A stretch of 64,000 nt of DNA, taken from Sphingobacteriales bacterium. GTDB lineage: Bacteria > Bacteroidota > Bacteroidia > AKYH767-A > OLB10. This document shows, one piece after another, positions 40,531-43,970 of the stretch. The stretch is taken from positions 38,126 to 102,125 of the forward strand of contig JAJTFW010000010.1 in assembly GCA_021299095.1 (NCBI GenBank), written 5' to 3'. How positions within the stretch are numbered: position 1 is the stretch's first letter; each line of letters opens with the position of its first letter. The notes beneath the pieces are model-generated. The model did no database searches and was not told the DNA's origin. It saw only the letters and a list, made by a program, of their open reading frames with translations. The position numbers and the translations under genes are program-made.

Positions 40531-41237
40531 ATGACGAGTTTCTTCGAGTTTCTAAATTCTTCCGTTGGCAGAAAATGGCTGATGGCCCTTACCGGGCTGT
40601 TTCTATGCATCTTCCTGGTTGTCCATGTATCCGGTAATCTTCAATTGTTCAAGGACGACAATGGAATGTCCTTCAACCAGTACTCGGTTTTCATGACCAC
40701 TTTCACACCAATCAAAGTGGTCTCTTACCTCCTGTACGCTACTGTGATTGTGCACGCCATCAATGGTTTTTACCTGATGGGCAGGAACCGTAAAGCCAGA
40801 CCCGTGGCCTATGCCTCCACATGGCCAATTTTTGGTATAACTACAAGTTTGGTAGCATTGACTGGAAGACCTATGTTGTTGAAGCCAGCACCGGAAAACT
40901 GGTGACCGAAGACACCATTCCTGCAGCTGAAGCACTTGCACAAAACCTGCAGCCTGTTACCATGGAATACATGGGGAACAACATCATCATTTGCAAAGAC
41001 CTGTACAGCGTAGTAGCCGAAGCGTTCAAATCGCCGGCCCTCTCAGCCTTTTATATTTTAAGCATGGCGGCTTTGTCCTACCATTTGTTGCATGGGTTTC
41101 AGAGTGCTTTCCATACACTGGGGCTACGGAGAAAACGCTACGAAACCCTAATCCGGACAGCTGGCTTAGCGGTATTTGGTGTGATCATACCGGCCCTATT
41201 CGCTGCAATGCCAATCTATTTCCTCTTTGTCAAGTAA
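40531..41237 (+). pseudogene. sdhC: Succinate dehydrogenase cytochrome b subunit, frameshifted and apparently internally deleted
   Basis: N-part MTSFFEFLNSSVGRKWLMAL...RNRKARPVAYA in one frame (stop ~40905); C-part HMANFWYNYKFG...YHLLHGFQSAFHTLG in another frame ending 41237; TM helix III region absent between them. Confidence 0.82.
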
Positions 41238-41250
41238 TCCTATCGTCTCC

Positions 41251-43164
41251 ATGAAGCTCGATTCCAAGATACCTGCAGGACCACTTGCCGAAAAGTGGGA
41301 CCGCCATAAGTTCAATTGCAAACTGGTTAACCCGGCCAACAAACGCAAGTACGATGTCATCATTGTCGGTACAGGTCTAGCCGGTGCGTCGGCCGCTGCT
41401 TCACTGGCCGAACTCGGGTACAATGTAAAGACCTTTTGCTTTCAGGACTCACCCCGTCGTGCGCACAGTATCGCGGCACAAGGAGGAATCAATGCAGCCA
41501 AGAATTACAGAAACGACGGTGACAGCGTTTACCGGCTTTTCTACGATACGATTAAAGGTGGCGACTACCGTGCGCGCGAGGCAAATGTTCACCGCCTGGC
41601 ACAGGTCAGTGTAAACATCATCGACCAATGCGTTGCTCAAGGTGTACCCTTCGCCCGTGAGTATGGCGGCTTACTTGACAACCGCTCGTTTGGTGGTGCA
41701 CAGGTGTCGCGTACGTTTTATGCCAAAGGGCAGACAGGCCAGCAATTGTTGCTCGGCGCCTACTCCGCCATGAACAGGCAGATTGGCGAGGGTAAGATCA
41801 AGAGCTATACCCGTCACGAAATGTTGGAGTTGGTCATGATTGACGGACAGGCGCGCGGAATCATTGCACGCGATATGGTCACGGGTGAGATTGAACGACA
41901 CAGTGCGCATGCCGTAGTTTTGGCGACTGGTGGATACGGAAACGTTTTTTATCTGACCACTTACGCTCGTGGAAGTAACACCACAGCCATTTGGAGAGCG
42001 CACAAAAAAGGCGCCTTCTTCGGCAATCCCTGTTTCACACAAATCCATCCGACTTGCATTCCCGTCTCGGGCGATCATCAGTCTAAATTGACACTCATGT
42101 CGGAGTCGCTGCGAAACGACGGAAGGATTTGGGTACCGAAGCAGAAAGGTGATCCGCGTAAGCCACAGGATATTCCAGAAGAGGATCGTGATTATTACCT
42201 GGAGCGCCGATACCCTTCATTCGGAAACCTGGTACCCCGCGACATTGCTTCGCGTGCCGCCAAGGATATGTGTGACAAAGGCTTCGGAGTCGGAAAAACC
42301 GGACTTGCGGTTTACCTCGACTTCAGTGATGCCATAAACCGGATGGGTGCAAAAACCGTTGAATCCAAATACGGCAACCTTTTCGATATGTACAAGCAGA
42401 TCACCGGTGAGGATCCCTACACGACGCCGATGATGATTTACCCTGCAGTACACTATACCATGGGAGGACTTTGGGTGGATTACAACCTGATGACCACGAT
42501 TCCCGGACTCTACGCATGTGGGGAGGCTAACTTCAGTGACCACGGTGCCAACCGCCTGGGGGCATCCGCATTGATGCAAGGCCTGGCAGATGGCTATTTC
42601 GTGCTCCCCTACACCATCGGAGATTACCTGGCCGGAGAGGAGCGCAAGGCCATCCCAAATGATACCCCTGAATTCATGGAGGCGGAGGCAGCTGTGAAAG
42701 AACGACTTGCTGCGCTGCTTGCCATCCGTGGCAATAAGACCGTACACGAGTATCACCGCGAACTCGGACTCATCATGTGGAATTACTGCGGTATGGCCCG
42801 CAATGAATCCGGTTTGAACGAGGGAATCGAGAAAATCAGAAGCCTGAAAAAAGACTTTTGGAACAACCTGCTGGTCCCTGGCGGCAGTGCCGAACTCAAC
42901 CAGAATCTCGAAAAAGCGGGTCGCGTTGCTGACCTGATCGAGCTCGGCGAACTGATGATGGTGGACGCTCTTGACCGGAAGGAAAGCTGCGGAGGACATT
43001 TCCGCGAGGAATACCAGACTCCCGAAAACGAAGCCTTGCGTGATGACGAAAACTATGCTTACGTAGCTGCCTGGGAATACAAAGGACAAGACCAACCGCA
43101 TCAACTTCACAAAGAGGATCTGGTTTTCGAAAATGTGAAACCCAGCCAACGTTCTTACAAGTAA
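41251..43164 (+). CDS. sdhA: Succinate dehydrogenase/fumarate reductase flavoprotein subunit
   Basis: [77 protein letters not shown]. Confidence 0.97.
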
Positions 43165-43211: not shown

Positions 43212-43970
43212 ATGAGCGGAACCATGAACCTGACACTGAAGGTGTGGAGGCAAAAAAATGCAACCACCGGAGGCTCTTTCGAAACCTATGCGGCGCGCAA
43301 CATCAGCCCCGACATGTCCTTTCTTGAGATGCTCGATGTGGTAAACGAAGACCTCATCAAAGGCGGAAAAGAACCCATTGCATTTGATCACGATTGCCGT
43401 GAAGGTATTTGCGGAATGTGCAGCATGTACATCAACGGCCGGGCTCATGGTCCTGTAAAAGGGGTCACGACCTGCCAGTTACATATGCGAAGCTTCAATA
43501 GCGGAGAGACGATCACCATCGAACCCTGGCGTGCTGCCGCATTTCCTGTAATTCGCGATCTGGTCGTTGACCGTAGATCATTTGACAAGATTCAGCAGGC
43601 CGGTGGATTTGTTTCAGTAAATACAGGAGCCGCTCCTGATGCCAATAGTATTCCGGTTCCGAAGGCGAATGCCGATGAAGCCTTCAATTCTGCAGCTTGT
43701 ATCGGATGCGGAGCCTGTGTAGCCGCATGCACCAACAGCTCAGCGATGCTGTTCCTGTCGGCCAAAGTCTCTCAATACGCATTGCTCCCCCAAGGGCATG
43801 TAGAAGCAAAGCGCCGCGTTGCAAACATGTTAAAAGCGCATGATGAGGCAGGTTTTGGATCCTGTACCAATACGGAAGCCTGCGAAGCCGAATGCCCCAA
43901 GGGGATTTCGGTCAGTAACATCGGTCGATTGAACGCCGAATTTGCTGGAGCACTCTTCAGTGGCGAGTAA
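43212..43970 (+). CDS. sdhB: Succinate dehydrogenase/fumarate reductase iron-sulfur subunit
   Basis: [43 protein letters not shown]. Confidence 0.96.

Follow-up and report, generated by a model that had tools for sequence, protein, structure and literature searches.

The window, that is, the whole stretch of 64,000 nucleotides that was analysed, belongs to contig C47 of a draft genome that comprises 93 contigs, totals 2,513,363 bases and is estimated to be 96% complete. On its plus strand, positions 40531–41237 are occupied by the sdhC gene, which is interrupted by a single out-of-frame deletion at 40813–40817. The gene opens with an ATG at 40531 and remains in frame up to the TAT at 40810–40812, possibly including the GCC at 40813–40815. 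This N-terminal part (40531–40815), with transmembrane (TM) helices I and II, matches positions 1–87 of the TIGR02046 profile (SdhC, b558 family; E 5e-19) and is 81% identical to residues 1–96 of the SdhC protein of a congener (G002). Past the junction its frame is out of register and runs into a stop at 40903–40905. The C-terminal part (40818–41237), with the terminal His of TM III followed by TM IV and TM V, is encoded in another frame, which reads CAC ATG GCC from 40818 and closes with the stop codon that ends at 41237. It matches profile positions 134–209 (E 9e-14) and shows 67% identity to residues 122–262 of the same congener protein. The two halves in different frames, which the preliminary description had placed as meeting at about 40815–40825, were thus confirmed, with the change of frame at 40813–40817. 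Scored singly against TIGR02046, the halves give 68.7 and 51.6 bits, and neither reaches the curated cut-off of 96 bits. Since the matches end at position 87 and resume at 134, it is the middle of the family that is missing from sdhC.

Downstream, sdhA (41251–43164, plus strand) begins 13 nt after the sdhC stop and encodes an intact flavoprotein subunit of 637 aa, with 90% and 89% identity over 637 aa to its counterparts in the congeners G002 and G003, respectively. It is followed on the same strand by sdhB (43212–43970), an open frame of 252 aa assigned to the iron-sulfur subunit by its position and its Cys motifs. That both genes are intact, as previously described, is therefore supported for sdhA by the identity to the congeners over 637 aa and for sdhB by its open frame. 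This context, together with SdhA and SdhB, is the one found for members of the SdhC family.

In order to size the missing segment, the sequence was aligned with the two congeners that carry sdhC at this site, G002 (L009) and G003 (L010), in both of which a single frame runs across the junction (the G003 contig ends inside the gene). The distance between the Tyr codon of the KARPV-x-Y motif and the His codon at the end of TM III (in THM or THL) is 87 nt in both congeners, whereas it is reduced in the window to the five bases GCCTC (40813–40817). Assuming an ancestor with the common spacer, this indicates that 82 nt have been lost from sdhC. The assumption is well supported by the sequences, because the Tyr–His spacer comprises 29 residues in G002, in G003 and in 15 of the 15 further family genomes in which it was measured. 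The earlier estimate of about 28 residues with TM III, in a loss of a length not divisible by three, is hence close to the value obtained from the congener alignment. The lost segment comprises the loop together with almost the whole of TM helix III. The terminal His of this helix is retained, and we take it to be one of the haem ligands, as in the Bacillus subtilis and Wolinella succinogenes proteins; a literature search for haem-ligand data on SdhC gave nothing. Hydropathy analysis agreed with this, as helices I to V were found in the G002 protein and only I, II, IV and V in the open reading frames of the window, where TM III (MGILGTILLIFIVTHM in G002) is missing. In the window, therefore, no single polypeptide of sdhC carries the five TM helices.

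One important question is whether this architecture might be an inherited one, or whether a different functional copy of the gene might be present elsewhere in the genome. Contig ends aside, all family members having sdhC showed it intact, like the two congeners, which leaves the ancestral split architecture considered in the preliminary description without a counterpart among relatives. A third genome of the genus (G001, a draft estimated to be 97% complete) yielded no sdhC and no close sdhA, which probably reflects a gap in that draft assembly. The search for a second sdhC that had been proposed was carried out in the own genome with TIGR02046, with PF01127 and with the missing peptide, and each of them matched only the sdhC locus in this approximately 96% complete draft; nor was the lost segment found at any other site of this genome. 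Hence, both an ancestral split and a second functional copy can be given almost no weight. The genome also contains an intact terminal oxidase of the COX1 type, so the organism should respire, and a respiring cell with this sole SdhC should need the gene.

The two halves of sdhC have not evolved as a decaying pseudogene would. Compared with G002, pN/pS was 0.16 for the N-terminal half and 0.26 for the C-terminal half, with pS near saturation, the corresponding value for sdhA being 0.09. Signs of relaxed selection were not found in either remnant, and the strong purifying selection on both halves argues against an old sdhC pseudogene. Since this selection has acted through nearly all of the divergence, the lesion is either recent or artificial.

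Retention of frame and of the selection signature in both halves would also be compatible with a shortened or split anchor, made either as a four-helix protein through a frameshift or as a pair of two-helix polypeptides, with the second starting at the ATG at 40821, which lies in the frame of the C-terminal half. Such an anchor would have to function without TM III, no slippery sequence is evident at the junction, and the architecture occurs in no relative, as the constant spacer of 29 residues indicates. In addition, unrelated soluble enzymes of the same assembly have comparable breaks. We consider this explanation highly improbable.

These other breaks were analysed in the same assembly. The nadA gene (quinolinate synthase), at about 66.9–67.8 kb of contig C93 (L123:6942–7795), is broken out of frame with no N in the sequence; profile positions 5–123 and 174–309 are read in different frames, which join at C93:67376. 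By tblastn, 142 nt are missing in comparison with G001, and both G001 and G002 have the gene intact. The absent part of nadA was also looked for, as had been done for sdhC, and was not found, the query being short and without a positive control. A gene for a 7TM-HD phosphohydrolase on the minus strand of contig C80 (L125:215–2097) shows an out-of-frame break with 95 nt missing, and this segment, which covers the HD motif region (HDIGK) in part, is present in all three congeners. Two more genes are broken out of frame: one for an ActE-like monohaem cytochrome c at C65:9169 (L170, around 9169), in which the CxxCH region is apparently missing and whose name is our reading of the sequence and of a weak cytochrome match, and one for a secreted protein of the beta-propeller type at C35:633 (L164, around 633). 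A different kind of defect came to light in nadB during a search for FAD-binding proteins. This gene, on contig C81 (L119:3735–3779), lies in two frames separated by a scaffold gap of 45 N, the flanks of which share 10 identical bases. The flanks therefore probably overlap at the true join, and 45 N is a wrong gap length, which demonstrates that scaffold joins of this assembly are imprecise.

The frequency of such lesions was compared with that in related genomes by means of a codon-usage scan for frame switches on the same strand, using 523 kb (21%) of the assembly and, as control, 1.02 Mb from five related genomes. Eight matches were obtained in the own-genome sample, which on inspection corresponded to five unmarked lesions (those of sdhC, nadA, the 7TM-HD phosphohydrolase, the ActE-like cytochrome and the beta-propeller protein), one N gap and two normal gene boundaries. 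The control gave three, two of them normal boundaries and one a possible lesion. The latter, in genome G023 (L204, around 873), concerns a repetitive secreted protein whose frame may be broken, by a real lesion or by an error. Frame switches at 34.3–37.7 kb of the window (an MMPL-type transporter followed by an RfbA-like gene), at 28.0–29.7 kb (gldB followed by a gene of the metallo-beta-lactamase fold with a GTG start) and at L120:19524 in the own-genome sample were discarded as normal gene boundaries. Five unmarked lesions in 523 kb versus one in 1.02 Mb correspond to a binomial P of approximately 0.02. The numbers are small, and the contrast is inflated because sdhC itself is one of the five and because the thresholds were relaxed after a first scan had missed it. 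With the stricter threshold, four unmarked lesions plus the N gap were found in the own genome and none in 365 kb of control. Comparable lesions are thus in excess over the related genomes, in a comparison that is small and depends on our inspection of the matches.

Because similar unmarked lesions recur in the same assembly and the relatives are intact, the loss of 82 nt is probably a local error made in assembling a fragmented draft, and the gene otherwise an ordinary sdhC of the b558 type in an sdhCAB operon. The 82 nt would have been dropped during assembly and not from the DNA, and a complete SdhC with five helices is most likely present in the organism. Assembly collapse is accordingly the one of the three options of the preliminary description that gained support, whereas loss of anchoring and rescue by frameshifting did not. 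Some observations count against an assembly error. The pN/pS of the C-terminal half (0.26) is somewhat higher than that of the congener pair (0.16), and the sdhC, nadA and 7TM-HD junctions have little or no microhomology, which is not what a simple merge of overlapping ends would give. The same junctions speak against a deletion between short direct repeats, which had been suggested for sdhC: in our reading, about one base at most can be assigned to both sides, and this mechanism is not supported for the three genes.

The clean junction, with flanks that are otherwise well-formed coding sequence, would also be expected from a real and recent deletion of 82 nt affecting the sampled strain or some members of the population, and a recent loss too would leave no signature of decay. 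Such a deletion would nevertheless have to coincide with the losses in nadA, in the gene of the ActE-like cytochrome and in other genes of the assembly, and would have hit the sole anchor gene in a genome whose terminal oxidase is intact, so that we regard it as rather unlikely. Its consequence would be the destruction of the anchor, with SdhA and SdhB off the membrane and no electron transfer from succinate to quinone. Still more doubtful is a strain truly without membrane anchoring of complex II, with SdhA and SdhB intact, in which the sdhC deletion would be a recent one in a genome-wide wave of deletions of 80–140 nt. Real deletions would leave the bacterium with no anchored complex II and unable to make NAD de novo via quinolinate, which would be a remarkable situation. 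As it stands, core genes of the draft genome, sdhC and nadA among them, contain internal deletions that nothing in the sequence marks, and consequently a gene that appears absent or truncated in it should not be taken as the loss of a pathway.

Compared with known systems, the gene resembles the TIGR02046 family in that its two halves follow the order of the profile, and differs from it in the absence of some 46 profile positions (the loop and TM III) and in the broken frame. The likeness to the congener G002 extends to the sdhC-sdhA-sdhB order and to the sequence, with 81% and 67% identity for the two halves. With regard to the break itself, many apparent pseudogenes of bacteria are spurious and produced by assembly, according to Cooley and Wright (2024, PMC11017572). 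The case described here resembles those in that conserved genes under selection are broken, several of them in one draft; their description covers frameshifts and internal stops in general, whereas the losses measured here are of 82–142 nt.
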